Shown here: positions 46,747-54,968 of the stretch, in pieces | How positions within the stretch are numbered: the stretch's first letter is position 1 | Layout of the letters: each line of letters starts with the position of its first letter | DNA from: SAR324 cluster bacterium | Lineage (GTDB): Bacteria > SAR324 > NAC60-12 | Length of the DNA stretch: 64,000 nt | NCBI GenBank assembly: GCA_015232315.1 | Contig: JADFZZ010000005.1 | Coordinates: 1 to 64,000, forward strand | Direction: 5' to 3' | Position numbers and translations under genes: made by a program | The notes under the pieces: model-generated | Told to the model about the DNA's origin: nothing | Database searches by the model: none | The model's input: the letters and a program-made list of their open reading frames with translations, nothing else

Positions 46747-47778
46747 ATGAGCATGATCCGGCCACAGTCATCAGTAAAAATAGTTTTAAGTTTATGCATA
46801 CTTCTGTTCGGGGGCAACTTGAGGTTGCTACGGGCAATTGAAATGGAAGACCGCCTTCCCCCGTTTGTGCTTCAGGCCGGGTTGAATCTGTCCAGTTCGG
46901 AATACTATGGCGCATACGGTGGAAATTTTCACAGAGCGTCATTGAAGGATCTTATTATCAGAGACAATCAATACCGAACCCGTCTTGAGGGGAGAATCAG
47001 ACGGGAAGAAACCCGTTATACCTGGAATATGTTATATGGTCTCAGTGAAAACTGGCAGCTTGGTCTGGAAATTCCCTACATCATCCGTGAGCAACGGGCG
47101 GATCTGACGATCATTACCACCGAGGGGCTTTCTGCGGATGAAAGCTCAGACATCCATGAAATCATTGATTATTTCAACACTTCCCAACATGTGGAGGGAA
47201 CGGGTGATATCAGTCTGAAACTGGGATATGACATGCACTACAGCAACACTTTGCTGGTCAGGAGTGGCATCATTATACAGACCCCGCTCAATACCACTGA
47301 GGCGCCTCGCGGAATCTATCCATGGGAAGTTAGTGAAAATCAAACTGATGTTACCGGTTTTTTTCACTTTACACGTTATCCCTATTCACGTTATCAGATA
47401 CGTAATAACCTCCGAATCAGTATGACCAATCAACTCGTAGGAGAACGTGAAACGCTTGCTGGTCATAAGGTGAAATATTTTGGGGGGAATGCTCTTGATT
47501 TAAGGTATAATTGGATTTATGAATTCAATAATAGCCTTGTCGGAGCAGAACTTCAACGTTCGCAGGGAGAAGACAGTAATCTGAATGGACAGAACCAGAA
47601 AAACAGATCGGTTCTTCATCAACTGAATTTTGAAATTGGACAGGGAAACTATCAGGATCTTGAGCAAAAAATGGTTCTGCTCCCCTATCAGTTCAGAACA
47701 GGATTCCGGCTCCCGTTGGGCGGGATGAATATTCCATACGTTTATCAGATTTATTTCACATTTCAGGCATATTTTTAG
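46747..47778 (+). CDS. Outer-membrane beta-barrel protein
   Basis: This 343-residue protein has a signal peptide (hydrophobic core LSLCILLFGG, cleavage near LRA-IEM). About a dozen amphipathic strands follow, with tight turns typical of transporter-like barrels. It ends in YFTFQAYF, with the terminal Phe required by the Bam machinery. AGGA precedes the ATG. It heads the collinear group that continues to 55393, with only 23 bp to the TPR-protein gene. Barrels of this look include phenol-degradation-type porins, but I cannot name the family. Confidence 0.75.
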   Translation: MSMIRPQSSVKIVLSLCILLFGGNLRLLRAIEMEDRLPPFVLQAGLNLSSSEYYGAYGGNFHRASLKDLIIRDNQYRTRLEGRIRREETRYTWNMLYGLSENWQLGLEIPYIIREQRADLTIITTEGLSADESSDIHEIIDYFNTSQHVEGTGDISLKLGYDMHYSNTLLVRSGIIIQTPLNTTEAPRGIYPWEVSENQTDVTGFFHFTRYPYSRYQIRNNLRISMTNQLVGERETLAGHKVKYFGGNALDLRYNWIYEFNNSLVGAELQRSQGEDSNLNGQNQKNRSVLHQLNFEIGQGNYQDLEQKMVLLPYQFRTGFRLPLGGMNIPYVYQIYFTFQAYF

Positions 47779-47801: not shown

Positions 47802-49991
47802 ATGAGCGATCAAGAGAATAAGCCTCAGACTGAGCCTTCAGAAACAGGAGGAGGTGAGGCAAAAACGGGGAAAAAGCTGAAACTGTCTATTAAAAAAGTT
47901 TCTAAGGCAGCCACCAATGATCAGGAGATATCCTCATCTGAGACTGATCAGGTCAAATCCGGATCACCAGAAGAGCCGATTACAAAAGATACGCCCTCAA
48001 CGGATAGCGCCGTCGCGCCTGAGCAAACATTGACTTTATCACTTTCAACAAAAACCAAAGCTGACGACGCAACCATTTCGGCAACTGAAGAAGTAACAAC
48101 ACCAACAATGCCTTCCCCTGAACCGGAACTTCCCCCAGTTACTGAAAAAACAGAAGAACCAGAAATTGCTGAAACAAAGAAAATTGCGTTTTCTCTCAAA
48201 GATTTTGCTCACAATGAAATTAAAAAGGAACCAGAAAAACCAGAAATCTCCCCTGTTGAGCAACCAACTCCTCCAGAAAAACCAATCCGTCTATCATTAA
48301 ACACGACAGACACACAGCTTACCCCTGAAGCAAAAACACAGGAATCAACTCCCGGCAGCGAGCAGGGAAAACCGGCAAAAATCAAATTATCTTTTCATGA
48401 TCTGGCATCAAAAACGCAAAAAGAACCTGCGTTAAAAGAGGGACCCCCCCCACCACCGGCAGGTGGCAAGATCGCTTTTTCACTAACGGATCTGGTTCCT
48501 GAAAAAAAAGAAATCCCAGCCAAGGTCACTTCGACGCAGGAACCTGGAACGTTGGCACCTGGAGAAAAATCTGTTGTTGCTGATACGGGGAAAGTATCAA
48601 TATCCTTGAAGGATCTGGCCCAGATCGACTCAACACCGCCCAAAGCGGAGACGCCACCGCCGGCCAATGCCCCAAAACTATCATTATCAGGGATGGCACC
48701 TGCGGCTTCAACTGAAAAAAAACCAGCAGAACCAGCACCATCGTCCAAAGTGAAAGTCAGTTTGTCTTCGCTTGCGGGCACTTCAGAGAAAAAAGAAAGC
48801 GATTCTTCAGAAAAACCAGTCACGGCCAAAACCAAACTGTCGTTGTCTGAACTGTCTTCAGCCTCAGGCTCTCCGACAAAAGAAAAACCGGCGACGGCAC
48901 AAGCACCATTATCAATGTCTCAGAGCGCCCCCAAACCTCAATCCGCTCCTGCAAAGGGACAGGACAAACCACTTGAAACCGATAAAGAACTCTCCCAGCA
49001 GGAAAAGACCTCTTCATTGTCTGATTTGGCGGCACCGCAATCGCTCAAGCCTGGGATCGGTGAAATTCTGGGAAAACTTCTCGGCACTGCCGCTGTACTT
49101 GTGCTGTTGGCAGGACTTGGCTGGATTGGCTATACCATTGCCATGGGCCCCCAGGATGTGAAATTATCCAGTGTAAAATACGAATTACCACCAGCCATTG
49201 AACTCGATAACCTGTCACTAGCTACTGTGAACGAGTCGAATACGAGCATTGCTTCTGCCTCAGATGACAAAAAAACTGTGGTCGCTAAAGCCAAACCCAA
49301 GCCTGTTCTCAAGCCTGTGCAGAAAGTGGAGCCCGCACCCACACCAGTTCAACCGGTTGCAACGCCTGAACCACCAATGAAGGAAGAAGCGCCACCATTG
49401 ATTGCGACAACAGAGACACCCCCACAGAAAAAAGTTTCAAAATGGTTTGAACGCGGTGTTCGTTATCAGAAAAACAGTGAATGGGAAAAAGCGACGCATG
49501 CTTATGAAAAAGCTTTGGAAGAGACGCCCAAAGATCCGGATGTCTATAACAATCTGGGAGTTGTTTATCAAAATCAGGGTGAAACGGATAAAGCGCTGGT
49601 GCAATATGAAAAAAGCCTGGAGCTGGATCCTGATTCTGTAAAAACCTTGAACAACGCCGGTAGCGCTTATATGGTCAAACAAAGCTGGGAAAAAGCCGAG
49701 CAAATGTTCCGAAGTGCGATGGCAACAGACCTGGAACAGGCTGACAGTTATGCCAATCTGGCTCTCGTTTATAAAAAGAATCATAAGCTCAATGAGAGTG
49801 AAGCGGTGTTGCATCAAACCCTCACCATTTTCCCCAAATATGCCTTGGCTTACTATTACCTGGGGCAAGTGTATGAGGAGCAGAAAATGCGGAATGAAGC
49901 GCGCTGGTCCTATGAACAGTTTTTGCAGTTTTCACAAAACAAGGACCTCAACAAGGCCGTTGAGAATCATTTAAATAACAATTTACGCTAG
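47802..49991 (+). CDS. Membrane-anchored TPR protein with repeated K-I-x-x-S-L-x-D-L-A motifs
   Basis: This 729-residue protein has no signal peptide. Residues 1-420 are disordered (Pro/Ser/Lys/Glu-rich) but carry a short motif about eleven times: near 26 (LKLSIKK), 77, 127 (KIAFSLKDFA), 161, 193 (KIKLSFHDLA), 223 (KIAFSLTDLV), 264 (KVSISLKDLA), 291, 316 (KVKVSLSSLA), 343 (KTKLSLSEL) and 405 (SLSDLAAP). A membrane helix spans about 424-446. A Lys/Pro-rich stretch (about 490-545) like a periplasm-spanning linker comes next, then four or so TPR units (about 547-720). The N-terminal motif array is therefore probably cytoplasmic and the TPR domain periplasmic. The overall plan recalls FimV, with the parts in a different order. 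Spacing to the flanking genes (23 and 15 bp) suggests one operon with pilT. Confidence 0.85.
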   Translation: MSDQENKPQTEPSETGGGEAKTGKKLKLSIKKVSKAATNDQEISSSETDQVKSGSPEEPITKDTPSTDSAVAPEQTLTLSLSTKTKADDATISATEEVTTPTMPSPEPELPPVTEKTEEPEIAETKKIAFSLKDFAHNEIKKEPEKPEISPVEQPTPPEKPIRLSLNTTDTQLTPEAKTQESTPGSEQGKPAKIKLSFHDLASKTQKEPALKEGPPPPPAGGKIAFSLTDLVPEKKEIPAKVTSTQEPGTLAPGEKSVVADTGKVSISLKDLAQIDSTPPKAETPPPANAPKLSLSGMAPAASTEKKPAEPAPSSKVKVSLSSLAGTSEKKESDSSEKPVTAKTKLSLSELSSASGSPTKEKPATAQAPLSMSQSAPKPQSAPAKGQDKPLETDKELSQQEKTSSLSDLAAPQSLKPGIGEILGKLLGTAAVLVLLAGLGWIGYTIAMGPQDVKLSSVKYELPPAIELDNLSLATVNESNTSIASASDDKKTVVAKAKPKPVLKPVQKVEPAPTPVQPVATPEPPMKEEAPPLIATTETPPQKKVSKWFERGVRYQKNSEWEKATHAYEKALEETPKDPDVYNNLGVVYQNQGETDKALVQYEKSLELDPDSVKTLNNAGSAYMVKQSWEKAEQMFRSAMATDLEQADSYANLALVYKKNHKLNESEAVLHQTLTIFPKYALAYYYLGQVYEEQKMRNEARWSYEQFLQFSQNKDLNKAVENHLNNNLR

Positions 49992-50006: not shown

Positions 50007-50765
50007 ATGTCTGTTGAAACACGTTTTATAGATTCCGCGCACCAACAAGCGCTTGTGACCCTGAAAAAAGTTTCAGAAATGCACTTCAGTGCTGTTATGT
50101 TTGAAGTGGGACATGACTTGATCGAGAAAAATGTGCGTCACATTATCGTGGATTTACTCGATATGGTCTATATTCCCATGGAGGGCTTGGGAACACTGAA
50201 TTCATTATGTCAGGATCTTTCTGCCATCAAAGGCCGGTTGGCCCTTGTATGCCACAATGCCAATATTAAAATGCTACTCAGATCAACCACTTTGGCTAAA
50301 GTCATTGAAATTCATGACAATCTGGATGACGCAATGCAGATCCATGAAGATCAGTTGCTCCAGGGCTTCATGGATCAATTGAATGACGAACAAAAATTCT
50401 GGTATCTGAAAGCTGTCGCCAACATCATTGTGGCGGATGGTGAAATTTCTCCCGGTGAAATTGCTGTCGCTGAATCATTGTTTGCCCAAATTGAACTCGA
50501 ATCACACAAAATCGCGGAAATTCAGAATATTTTCCAGTCATTGACTAAAGTGAAACTGGAACCCTTACGCATTGATAAAAAGTTGGGATTAACCATGCTT
50601 CAAACCCTGACGCTCATTGCGATCGCAGACAATTCGCTGATGTCCGCGGAAGAAAATGTTATCCGTGAACTCACTCATTGTTTAGGCTTTGCTTCAACGA
50701 CAGCAGAGGAAATGATCAACTGGGGCTCTGAACAATTAAAAACAGCACAGACTCATCAGGACTAA
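50007..50765 (+). CDS. STAS-like plus TerB-like two-domain protein
   Basis: This 252-residue soluble protein has an N-terminal domain (about 1-105) that looks like STAS: VRHIIVDLLDMVYIPMEGLGTLNSL. The position where anti-sigma antagonists are phosphorylated on Ser reads MVYIPMEGLG, so the acceptor serine is missing and regulation by phosphorylation is unlikely. The C-terminal domain (about 120-250) has two acidic repeats, VADGEISPGEIAVAESLF and IADNSLMSAEENVIREL. These match the metal-binding pattern of TerB/DUF533-like domains. It lies 3 bp before pilT and 15 bp after the TPR gene. I infer a regulatory adaptor for the pilus-related module. Confidence 0.72.
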   Translation: MSVETRFIDSAHQQALVTLKKVSEMHFSAVMFEVGHDLIEKNVRHIIVDLLDMVYIPMEGLGTLNSLCQDLSAIKGRLALVCHNANIKMLLRSTTLAKVIEIHDNLDDAMQIHEDQLLQGFMDQLNDEQKFWYLKAVANIIVADGEISPGEIAVAESLFAQIELESHKIAEIQNIFQSLTKVKLEPLRIDKKLGLTMLQTLTLIAIADNSLMSAEENVIRELTHCLGFASTTAEEMINWGSEQLKTAQTHQD

Positions 50766-50768
50766 AAT

Positions 50769-51851
50769 ATGGCTGCTGCAATCAATGTGTTTTTTGAATT
50801 CATGCACAATCAACGCGCGTCTGATCTACACATGGCCAGCGGACGAAAACCCAGAATCCGGATTGATGGGGAACTGCATGATATTGAATATGAAGTACTG
50901 ACTGATCAGAGCTTACGAAAAATGCTGTATGAAATCATGCCACCGGAGCGCCTGCCAGTGTTTAAGGAAACAGGCGATATGGATTTTGGTTATGAAATTC
51001 CAGGCCTTGCCAGATATCGTGCAAATTATTTTGAACAAACGCAGGGAATAGGCGCTGTATTCCGGGAAATTCCAAGCAAAATTTTAACGTTGGAGCAATT
51101 GGGACTTCCACAGGTACTGGCACGTTCAGCAATGCTCAATCGGGGATTGGTACTGGTGACAGGCCCGACTGGTAGCGGAAAATCAACGACCTTGGCCGCG
51201 ATCATGGATTATGCCAATAAAAACCGTCGCGATCATATTGTGACGATTGAAGATCCCGTTGAATTTGTGCATGAAAGCCATGGATGTCTGGTCAATCATC
51301 GGGAAGTTGGTAAACACACAAAATCATTCACCGCGGCACTGAGAGCAGCGCTGCGTGAAGACCCTGACATCATTCTGGTTGGAGAGATGCGGGATTTGGA
51401 AACCATTGAGCTGGCGATTGAAGCTGCTTCGACAGGTCATCTTGTTTTCGGAACCCTGCATACCCAAAGCGCAACCAAGACAGTTGACCGGATTATTGAT
51501 GTTTTTCCAGTGGATCAACAGGAAAAAGTCCGCGTGACTCTCTCTGAAACGCTGAAAGTTGTCGTTGCGCAAAATCTGTTCAAACGCTCGGATATGCCGG
51601 GTCGATGTGCCGCACTGGAAATTCTGATCTGCACCCAGGCTGTTGCGGCCATGATCCGTGAAGGCAAAACGCATCAACTGGTGTCCATGATGCAAACAGG
51701 CAAAAAACATGGCATGCGATTACTGGATGATACCATTCAGGAATTACTGGATAAAAAATGGATTTCTCCAGAGCAGGCTTATGAAAAGTCTATGGATAAA
51801 AAACGGTTTATTCCCTACCTTTCTGAACCGCCGGATGAATTGGCCGGATGA
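50769..51851 (+). CDS. pilT: Type IV pilus retraction ATPase PilT
   Basis: This 360-residue protein has the full set of PilT motifs: QRASDLHMASGRKPRIRIDGE at the N-terminal domain, Walker A GPTGSGKST (132-140), the Asp box VTIEDPVEF, Walker B DIILVGEMRD, and the His box LHTQSATKTVDRIIDVFP. PilT powers pilus retraction and hence twitching or DNA uptake. The AIRNL-like C-terminal motif of classical PilT is not evident; the C-terminus ends in a Pro-rich tail with SEPPDELAG. The neighbours (STAS/TerB-like, secretion-chaperone-like) are unlike the usual pilT-pilU arrangement. Confidence 0.94.
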   Translation: MAAAINVFFEFMHNQRASDLHMASGRKPRIRIDGELHDIEYEVLTDQSLRKMLYEIMPPERLPVFKETGDMDFGYEIPGLARYRANYFEQTQGIGAVFREIPSKILTLEQLGLPQVLARSAMLNRGLVLVTGPTGSGKSTTLAAIMDYANKNRRDHIVTIEDPVEFVHESHGCLVNHREVGKHTKSFTAALRAALREDPDIILVGEMRDLETIELAIEAASTGHLVFGTLHTQSATKTVDRIIDVFPVDQQEKVRVTLSETLKVVVAQNLFKRSDMPGRCAALEILICTQAVAAMIREGKTHQLVSMMQTGKKHGMRLLDDTIQELLDKKWISPEQAYEKSMDKKRFIPYLSEPPDELAG

Positions 51852-51890
51852 AAGCTCGAGACCCTGAATTCTTAACATAAGGAGTTGTTT

Positions 51891-52292
51891 GTGAACAAAT
51901 ACAGTCAATTGATCAATGATTTTCTGCAAAATTGCGGTGAGGCTGAAAAAAGCTTTGTGACCGATACGGAATGGTGGATCATCAACGGTTCAGTGAAAGT
52001 TCAAATATTCTTAACCTCGCTGGATGAGGATGCTGAACTGATTGTGGCCGCAAATCTCCTCCGTCTGACTGAACCGAACCCCGCACTGAATCAATATGTT
52101 CTGCAACTCAATGGCAGTCTCAAATTGAAAGGGGCCGCATTTGGACTTCGCAATAAGCAACTGATTCTCAGCTTTGTGAGACCTGTTCAAGGGCTTGACC
52201 CGGAAGAACTGGAATGGATGATTGCCTGCATTGCCATACTTGCTGATGAGTACGACGATTTTCTCATCCAGAAATTCAAAATCGAATCCTGA
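51891..52292 (+). CDS. YbjN/type III secretion chaperone-like protein
   Basis: The start is a GTG at 51891: AAGGAG ends six bases before it, and no ATG fits. The 133-residue protein is small, acidic and alpha/beta, with a layout resembling the CesT/YbjN superfamily: helix (NKYSQLINDFLQNCG), a sheet with VKVQIFLTSLDEDAELIVAA, then LSFVRPVQGLDPEELEWMI. Members bind other proteins as chaperones or regulators. I base this on fold-like pattern only, so the family is tentative. It lies between pilT and the cyclic-nucleotide-binding-like gene. Confidence 0.55.
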   Translation: MNKYSQLINDFLQNCGEAEKSFVTDTEWWIINGSVKVQIFLTSLDEDAELIVAANLLRLTEPNPALNQYVLQLNGSLKLKGAAFGLRNKQLILSFVRPVQGLDPEELEWMIACIAILADEYDDFLIQKFKIES

Positions 52293-52409
52293 GAGCGATC
52301 ACGGCTCCGACCATTTGAGGGAAATCATGCATTGTGTGTAAAACGTGCATGATTATTGCTTGTGCGGAATATCACTGTTTATTTTTCAATAACCACCAAG
52401 CACGAACCC

Positions 52410-54968
52410 ATGACCTGGACTCATAATCAATATTACCCCCTCCCCCAAGCCGGTAAAGATACGATTGCCGCCGCAGTCGCTTTGTTACGGGCTTACCCGT
52501 TGACAACAGCCTGTCTGGAAATTCTTGGCAAACAACTCCTCGCCAAACTCGAATTTGGATTTTTCATGGAAGGGCAGGAATTTATCACTCAGGGAGAGTC
52601 TGGAAGAGACATGTTTTTGCTTTGCGGCGGAAAAGTGGATGTGCTGGTTAATGGACAGGTTGTCGTACAGATGGAAGGCCCGGTACTTTTGGGAGATAAA
52701 GCGCTGGTTGAACCCAAATCAAAACGTGCCGCCAGTATCCGTGTGGCCAAGGACCAAACCGCCCTGCTGATCAAAATTCCCATGGGATTGTTTATCAAAA
52801 ACTTTGGCGACCCCAGCATTCCTGATCCACAATTCAGTCAGGAAGTTTCCATTTTTGCCTACCTTTTCCAGGGAATCCAGCAACGATTGTTCAATTATGT
52901 TTATGTTCAGAAAAACCTCTGGGAAACTGTAAATACCAGTCTAAAACTGGCAAACAGCACCGTGATTGCCAAAATGCTGGACCAGCAAAAAAATATGAAC
53001 TGGGATAAAAACGTATGGGACCGTGTAAAACGATTTTTATCTCAGGATATTGGTTTCAAATGGGATGACTCCATTGCAATTTCACCTCAGACATTCCGTG
53101 AAAAACTCTGGGAATACCTGGATCAGCGGTTCCCTCGAAAAATTTTTAGTGGTTCTGATTCAGAATACGTGACCCAAAAACTTTTGATCTGGAATACCTG
53201 GCTCAATCAGATCAGTGCTCAAGCGCTACAGGCTCTGCCAGAAAACAAGTGGCCCATCAGTATCGGTGAACTCGAACTATTCAATCCCAGAAATTATCAC
53301 ATGCGATTGACACATATGCTACGTGGGGTGGAATCAAAGTTTTCCGCAAAAAATGATACACATCCCGCAATCACTTCTTTTTTCGGAAAAGGAGAGCAAT
53401 CCAATGAATTTGAGCTGGATCAATATTTAAAATCTTTTGAACAGACATTTTCTATACCACATCCCAAACGGATGCAGGCACAGGTGGCTCAACGCGTGGC
53501 TCAAATCGCGGCAACCTGTGAAAATCAGTTCAATGGAGCCATCGCGAAAATGCAGAATTTTCTGGTCGCTGTTCAGAAAAAATTCAATATTCAGGCCGAT
53601 GACACCGCACATCAGGAAGATAACACTATTGAATTGAGCCAGAAACTGATTCAGCGTTTCTCAAAAAGCTTTGTGGGATATGAAAAAAAGGTACAGTCCA
53701 TATCACAGAGTATTGGTGAACTGAAAATTATCATAGGCTTCACGCCCACGATTGAAGATCTGATCAAAAGCTCTCCAGTCAAACAGAATCGTGAAGAAAT
53801 GGAAAAAATTTATTTGAGGATCCTCGATGTATTGGACCTCAGAGCACAACTCACCCCTGTCAGTTACAGCATGAAACATTGGTTTCTCTCCATGGGAACC
53901 TTTCAGGATCATGTGCTGTTTAATGAGCTCAATAAACAATACTGGATGGTGTGTTCACCGGAAATAACCCTTTCTCTGCAAGATTCTGAAATTACCAGTA
54001 TTCCTGTTGGCATGATGGTCGGGGGGCCAGGCTGGTTGAAAGAAGCGGAAAGCAGGGAGCACAAACAACCCTATCAATTGAACATTCCCGCAAAAACCAC
54101 ATCTTCCGTTTTTTCCAATTTCTTGTTTGTGGGGATTGTTCCTCAGGAATTGCCGTGGACACAAGACAAGAATCCCTCACCGGAATTATTTGTTCAGCAT
54201 CATTTGCCACTGATGCAGTGGCTCATCAACAAACATATTGAATTTCTGAAGCTATTGACACAGGAACGTGACCGTCATTTTAATAAAGGATTTGAAGTGG
54301 AACGGTCATTGCGGTTGGAAAAAAAAGTGAAAGCATTTGAAACCGGCAACACCGAAATAAACGCCTTATTGTTTCAGGATATCCAAAAGCATCTTGCGCA
54401 AAATCTGCGCTTGAAACTGGAATCTTCCAGCCTCAATTCAGAACAGATAGCCAAAAAAATCTATAACCATATTCTGGTACAAATGGGTGAGGATTATCCC
54501 GGAATGCCCCTTGAGGAACGCAGCAATAAATCTTACACCAAATGGCGTTTTGCCCTGAGCGAACTGATCGCCTATCTGGATGCTCTGGACAAATCCACGA
54601 ATTCTGTCGGGAAAACCGTTCAGCCTGTTTGGGAAATCATAAAAAACGAAATTTCATCAGTACTGGAAACATATCTTGGCGGCAATGGAAAAGAAAGTGT
54701 TCAACTGGACAAGGATCCCCCGGCACTTGATATCAGTTCCATCCTGACAAATTATGGCACCATGCAGGTGAAAATGTTGATCTTCCGACAATCGTGTACT
54801 TTGTTGGAACGGTGGGTTTACCGGACGCTTGAAGAAGTGCATATCTACAAGCAGGAATGGGAAAACCTGAGCAAGAATCAGACACAGGATAATCATCAAA
54901 AGATTCAACTGGAATTGATCCGTGAAAATGCAAGCAGGCTTCAGCAAACATTGGGCATTGCCGCATGA
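52410..54968 (+). CDS. Large protein with N-terminal cyclic-nucleotide-binding-like domain
   Basis: The ATG at 52410 is preferred over non-ATG starts further up (TTG 52356, GTG 52362). The 852-residue protein has a CNMP-binding-like domain at about 48-130: FFMEGQEFITQGESGRDMF for the first strands and LLGDKALVEPKSKRAASI at the phosphate-binding-cassette position. The cassette has GDKAL where cyclic-nucleotide binders have GELAL, so the ribose-binding Glu is replaced and ligand binding is doubtful. The remaining 700 residues are mostly helical with no recognised domain and no membrane segment. It is a likely sensor or scaffold protein of the pilT group. Its stop codon lies 101 bp before the next gene. 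Confidence 0.75.
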   Translation: MTWTHNQYYPLPQAGKDTIAAAVALLRAYPLTTACLEILGKQLLAKLEFGFFMEGQEFITQGESGRDMFLLCGGKVDVLVNGQVVVQMEGPVLLGDKALVEPKSKRAASIRVAKDQTALLIKIPMGLFIKNFGDPSIPDPQFSQEVSIFAYLFQGIQQRLFNYVYVQKNLWETVNTSLKLANSTVIAKMLDQQKNMNWDKNVWDRVKRFLSQDIGFKWDDSIAISPQTFREKLWEYLDQRFPRKIFSGSDSEYVTQKLLIWNTWLNQISAQALQALPENKWPISIGELELFNPRNYHMRLTHMLRGVESKFSAKNDTHPAITSFFGKGEQSNEFELDQYLKSFEQTFSIPHPKRMQAQVAQRVAQIAATCENQFNGAIAKMQNFLVAVQKKFNIQADDTAHQEDNTIELSQKLIQRFSKSFVGYEKKVQSISQSIGELKIIIGFTPTIEDLIKSSPVKQNREEMEKIYLRILDVLDLRAQLTPVSYSMKHWFLSMGTFQDHVLFNELNKQYWMVCSPEITLSLQDSEITSIPVGMMVGGPGWLKEAESREHKQPYQLNIPAKTTSSVFSNFLFVGIVPQELPWTQDKNPSPELFVQHHLPLMQWLINKHIEFLKLLTQERDRHFNKGFEVERSLRLEKKVKAFETGNTEINALLFQDIQKHLAQNLRLKLESSSLNSEQIAKKIYNHILVQMGEDYPGMPLEERSNKSYTKWRFALSELIAYLDALDKSTNSVGKTVQPVWEIIKNEISSVLETYLGGNGKESVQLDKDPPALDISSILTNYGTMQVKMLIFRQSCTLLERWVYRTLEEVHIYKQEWENLSKNQTQDNHQKIQLELIRENASRLQQTLGIAA

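Follow-up and report, generated by a model that had tools for sequence, protein, structure and literature searches.

An array of short motifs in the disordered tail of a membrane TPR protein, a possible multivalent docking scaffold linked to type IV pili in a SAR324 bacterium

Avidity from a disordered tail has been described for the Rubisco linkers EPYC1 and CsoS2, and our searches found no such case for pili. In EPYC1/CsLinker and in the N-terminal domain of CsoS2, one short motif is repeated along a disordered chain with variable linkers, and conservation between species is poor. Multivalent pyrenoid linkers have been found by disorder combined with repeated elements at a spacing of 20–120 residues (PMC11570498). 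Here, we describe a membrane TPR protein of 729 aa in which these traits recur in the N-terminal tail, with a motif spacing that falls within the same range. It is encoded at 47802..49991 of a 64,000-nucleotide stretch of SAR324 DNA (hereafter the window), and all features given below lie on its forward strand (+). The original prediction knew of no described protein with this arrangement; that statement is not supported in so far as EPYC1/CsLinker and CsoS2 already exemplify a docking motif that recurs along a disordered chain. Unlike these linkers, the present protein is tethered to the inner membrane by a transmembrane helix, carries a TPR domain that is probably exported and stands in a pilus context; moreover, its motif sequence is unrelated and no helix is predicted at its motifs. 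By analogy, the best available description of the array would be a known multivalent-linker principle in a new, pilus setting.

The TPR domains of PilW/PilF-type proteins aid pilus assembly in the periplasm via secretin handling, and the MshN layout consists of a cytoplasmic tail, a transmembrane segment, a linker and a C-terminal TPR domain. Tail, transmembrane helix, linker and C-terminal TPR domain are all found in the array protein, which was delimited as an ATG-start open reading frame (a GGGG run lies directly 5' of the ATG) and characterised by TPR family matches and an AlphaFold2 (AF2) model whose input was an alignment with nine TPR relatives. In this model, pLDDT is below 50 almost throughout residues 1–415, which agrees with the disorder claimed beforehand for the N-terminal half. 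A transmembrane helix, previously put at 424–446, is placed by AF2 at residues 420–447 (49059..49142) and coincides with a Kyte-Doolittle peak. It is followed by a Pro-rich linker at residues 448–546 (49143..49439; AF2 and sequence) and by a PilW/PilF-like TPR domain at residues 547–726 (49440..49979; family and fold matches, pLDDT ~97). The MshN-like neighbourhood, with an MshL-like secretin and an ExeA/MshM-type ATPase, is in contrast not at this locus; a secretin/PilM/PilN/PilP/PilC/PilB-like cluster, assigned by reading, lies on another contig of the genome.

The best named TPR family is PilW (TIGR02521), with 89.2 bits against a cut-off of 154; the Tgl family scored 45.5 against a cut-off of 225, and the PilF structures 2ho1 and 2fi7 were among the fold matches of the TPR domain. 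The protein thus shares with PilW/PilF/Tgl the TPR fold and relatives in a pilus neighbourhood, whereas it misses the family cut-off, has no lipoprotein signal (its N-terminus being the disordered tail) and possesses a single internal transmembrane helix, with a predicted inner-membrane anchorage and a long cytoplasmic array. Its TPR relatives in the SAR324 genomes G010 and G004 (45% and 41% identity across the TPR domain, respectively) have apparent signal peptides and are adjoined by a pilin-like gene. In G004, the TPR homologue lies ~4 kb from PilT, amid pilin-, PilB- and PilC-like genes (PilB and PilC by reading); in the array operon, the TPR gene and pilT are separated by one gene, and the encoded PilT is 72% identical to that of G004. 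The TPR half, orthologous to the exported TPR protein of this pilus locus, belongs to type IV pilus neighbourhoods, a point that the original prediction had missed. Export of the related TPR domains, by apparent signal peptides in G004 and G010 or by a membrane anchor in Nitrospinota, makes it likely that the TPR domain is periplasmic and the tail of ~420 residues cytoplasmic, which is the side on which the array had been expected if the predicted helix spans the membrane.

Membrane TPR proteins of Nitrospinota show the same order of N-terminal tail, transmembrane helix, Pro-rich linker and C-terminal TPR domain, with 32% identity over linker and TPR domain, and the genes next to theirs encode an MshL-like secretin and an ATPase of the ExeA/XrtA type. 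In contrast to the array protein, their tail is only ~45 residues long and has one conserved SLIADSLKKA peptide and no array. The possibility that the motif is an amplified form of this peptide was rejected, as the two are alike by eye and the likeness is not significant (P 0.06–0.40). The ExeA-type ATPase was likewise set aside as a partner of the array, since the window genome gave no match to the Nitrospinota neighbour ATPase, in a search that had no positive control and shows little. In the Nitrospinota loci L107, L108, L111, L112 and L116, SLIADSLKKA is near-invariant at the N-terminus together with GINLLKNLG, and may be a docking peptide of their own.

The tail of the array protein has the consensus K-[ILV]-x-[LF]-S-L-[SK]-[DES]-L-A, and twelve sites within residues 1–415 align without gaps around an invariant Ser. 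Motifs 1 (KLKLSIKKVS, Ser29, 47874..47903) and 2 (TLTLSLSTKT, Ser80, 48027..48056) came from de novo motif finding, with leave-one-out scores of 6.9 and 5.7. Eight further copies were also matched by the motif profile (HMM): motif 3 (KIAFSLKDFA, Ser131, 48180..48209; score 16.0), motif 4 (PIRLSLNTTD, Ser165, 48282..48311; −0.9), motif 5 (KIKLSFHDLA, Ser197, 48378..48407; 16.1), motif 6 (KIAFSLTDLV, Ser227, 48468..48497; 14.5), motif 7 (KVSISLKDLA, Ser268, 48591..48620; 12.4), motif 8 (APKLSLSGMA, Ser294, 48669..48698; 4.9), motif 9 (KVKVSLSSLA, Ser320, 48747..48776; 9.7) and motif 10 (KTKLSLSELS, Ser347, 48828..48857; 13.8). The series ends with motif 11 (QAPLSMSQSA, Ser371, 48900..48929; −0.1) and motif 12 (EKTSSLSDLA, Ser405, 49002..49031; 8.1, and cross-validation). 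Ten copies are clear, with leave-one-out scores of 4.9 to 16.1, and two are weak (Ser165 and Ser371). All eleven motifs listed in the original prediction were recovered, to which the degenerate copy at Ser371 was added.

Half-against-half cross-validation is the decisive test of the array. A PSSM built from the first-half copies scored 35.6 on the second half, compared to −1.8 ± 6.1 for shuffles, and none of 2000 shuffles reached this score; in the opposite direction, the first half scored 20.9 compared to 0.9 ± 5.9, a value reached by 1 of 2000 shuffles. De novo motif finding gave a log-likelihood of 158.8 for the tail, with z 12.7 relative to its 100 shuffled versions (119.9 ± 3.1). It should be noted that this second test is weak at five copies (z 1.8 in a 200-aa slice of the same tail); 200-aa control segments, with z from −0.3 to 5.5 and 9.0 for one near-exact tandem repeat, are not a fair yardstick because the test loses power in slices of that length. 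The Ser-to-Ser distances are 51, 51, 34, 32, 30, 41, 26, 26, 27, 24 and 34 residues (range 24–51). With a coefficient of variation of 0.27, they are more regular than random non-overlapping placement would give (P = 0.0016). Overall, the array is confirmed as real, beyond what could be shown at the time of its first description.

We found no DNA-level repeat spanning the motifs, and the codons of shared residues are identical in 0.36 of copy pairs, compared to 0.30 expected from codon usage. The linkers between motifs are low-complexity and unrelated in sequence, so that, as had been claimed, the motif is conserved and the whole repeat is not. A recent DNA repeat or repeat slippage was rejected on these grounds: no repeat is left in the DNA, the codons of the copies are nearly randomised and the linkers are unrelated. 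Near-independent codons and unrelated linkers thus indicate that the motif is held at the protein level, and a conserved motif with near-random synonymous sites suggests, in this one sequence, the trace that selection on the peptide would leave. The same observations bear on whether the motif multiplied once in a low-complexity tail and is now drifting without a role. Every relative lacks the tail, two copies are already degenerate and the linkers are of low complexity, as such a relic would predict; however, the amino-acid motif persists after the DNA repeat has gone and synonymous codons have become near random, and the linkers have lost all similarity, whereas drift would erase motifs and linkers alike. 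Drift appears disfavoured from within this one sequence alone, and we consider a relic unlikely.

Conservation within the motif extends beyond the Ser at position 0 (12/12) to Lys at −4 (7/12), Asp at +3 (5/12) and Ala at +5 (7/12), and Lys is also frequent at −2. Hydrophobic residues make up 34% of the motif windows and 10% of the sequence outside them, compared to 3% and 17% for Pro. All eight Phi-x-Phi-x-Phi strings of the tail fall at motif sites; the four copies without the string are those at Ser294, Ser347, Ser371 and Ser405, and the Ser405 and Ser347 copies retain SLxDLA and SLxELS, respectively, despite its absence. The strand moment of the motifs is 0.45 compared to a background of 0.25, and the helical moment is 0.32 compared to 0.23, while the AF2 model shows no structure at the motif sites.

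These features were weighed against three further explanations. The motifs could pair mutually as short beta segments, the tails of many molecules then clustering the pilus proteins themselves without a separate partner. The alternating hydrophobic pattern, the hydrophobic islands amid a Pro/charged background and the regular spacing would suit such a self-association, but a plain sticker needs none of the conserved non-hydrophobic Ser, Lys, Asp and Ala, and aromatics are few; we regard it as improbable. Alternatively, weak insertion of the basic-hydrophobic motifs might fasten the tail along the surface of the inner membrane, as suggested by the Lys at −4 and −2 beside hydrophobic positions and by the anchoring helix at 420–447. 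This appears highly improbable, given that position +3 is acidic, the Ser is invariant, each motif has just 3–4 hydrophobic residues and the helical moment is barely above background. Finally, the invariant Ser with its frequent upstream Lys could be a kinase site, the array then counting phosphorylation events; however, the downstream D-L-A and the hydrophobic +1 are conserved too and the operon has no kinase gene, which makes this explanation very unlikely as well.

In the whole genome, the motif profile matched eight copies in the array protein; other motif-bearing proteins, for which the original prediction had proposed to search the genome, did not emerge from this search, in which a flagellin gave just a chance match. 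A second array was absent among the 52 SAR324-phylum and the 77 Nitrospinota genomes searched, and no array was found in viral contigs. When GTDB r220 contigs were scanned with the single sequence, no relative was returned, and an alignment scan returned 80 TPR loci, with no open reading frame carrying at least 3 motif matches; both scans require exact peptide patterns, which a diverged orthologue could escape. Within the operon partners, no significant copy of the motif was found that would indicate autoinhibition or mimicry. Among the genomes covered, the array tail is thus specific to this lineage, where it was added to a TPR protein with pilus links, and is known from one species.

Downstream of the array gene lie the three candidate partners named in the original prediction. 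The first is a STAS + TerB protein (50007..50765; domain matches), which was found at full length in the window genome only, together with the array; no other operon protein is restricted in this way, in what is a sample of one. Anti-sigma-antagonist STAS domains are expected to have a Ser before GLG; here the STAS domain reads VDLLDMVYIPMEGLGTL and this Ser is apparently missing. The second is the retraction ATPase PilT (50769..51851; family match), the sole PilT found by the genome search, and the third is a YbjN/CesT-like protein (51885..52292; matches to TY-Chap1, YbjN and CesT models). TY-Chap1/YbjN/CesT-type proteins are predicted peptide-binding chaperones (PMC9503650). The YbjN-like protein is single-copy and 60–82% identical in 27 further genomes of the SAR324 phylum that lack the array, so that it must have other ligands, and its role as a dedicated array partner is weakened. 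Similarly, both it and PilT need other functions and cannot depend on the array, because genomes lacking the array conserve them. As to the identity of the partner, the YbjN-like protein is a tentative candidate, STAS-TerB is a doubtful one, as is PilT, and something else is about as probable as the YbjN-like protein. The YbjN/CesT-like chaperone would be the best mechanistic fit, in that the motif core matches the class I beta-motif; STAS-TerB and PilT follow.

Class I chaperones bind the beta-motif Phi-(X1-4)-Phi-x-Phi by extending their own sheet (PMC6114900). Phi-x-Phi-x-Phi in a disordered segment (8/12 motifs), together with an operon that encodes a YbjN/CesT-like protein of the same superfamily as these chaperones, recalls class I type III secretion clients; the beta-motif consensus is loose, with a mean of 1.8 matches per shuffle of the tail. 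In contrast to those clients, which have one or two copies, the tail has twelve, and a type III secretion context was not seen. Our literature search on MshN tails and bacterial motif arrays found nothing.

Taken as a whole, the array protein may serve a type IV pilus module as its inner-membrane scaffold for multivalent docking, a reading whose chances we judge to be evenly balanced. The TPR domain would act in the periplasm, and all 10–12 motifs (K-Phi-x-Phi-S-Phi-x-D-L-A) would weakly bind the same cytosolic partner, one copy per motif, so that the tail as a whole could gather and concentrate it beneath the pilus base, as EPYC1 and CsoS2 do for theirs. That a single partner is bound is a natural, if unproven, supposition by analogy. 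Because the Phi-x-Phi-S-Phi half-motif alternates like a beta-strand, strand addition would be the likely mode of binding, for which the chaperone of the operon would be the best-fitting partner; we infer this mode, the multivalent docking and the topology alike. Whether the scaffold gathers the CesT/YbjN-like chaperone, or else the PilT motor or STAS-TerB, at the pilus base, as a recruitment hub or a condensate, is a more tentative proposal that we hold possible at most. If the array does dock a partner, avidity from a disordered membrane tail would serve, in the type IV pili of this lineage, to concentrate a motor, a regulator or a chaperone at the pilus base. Moreover, the array motif (GGKIAFSLKDFAHNE region) is a concrete candidate ligand for asking what YbjN-family proteins bind.

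The genes at the borders of this block gave several minor observations. The upstream gene (46747..47778) probably encodes an outer-membrane protein by reading; its product has no Pfam or NCBIfam match and reads as a secreted outer-membrane barrel. Downstream of the YbjN-like gene, an 870-aa protein (52356..54968) has a weak N-terminal cNMP-binding domain, the only part covered by Pfam. The YbjN-cNMP gene pair (51885–54968) is kept in G004, G005 and G010, where the OMP/array/STAS-TerB/PilT block upstream of it is absent, as if the block had been inserted in this lineage. Relatives of the 870-aa protein occur in 13 other SAR324-phylum genomes, and its own genome has three paralogues (C55, C9 and C4); a TerB-like gene (L075) comes after one of these.
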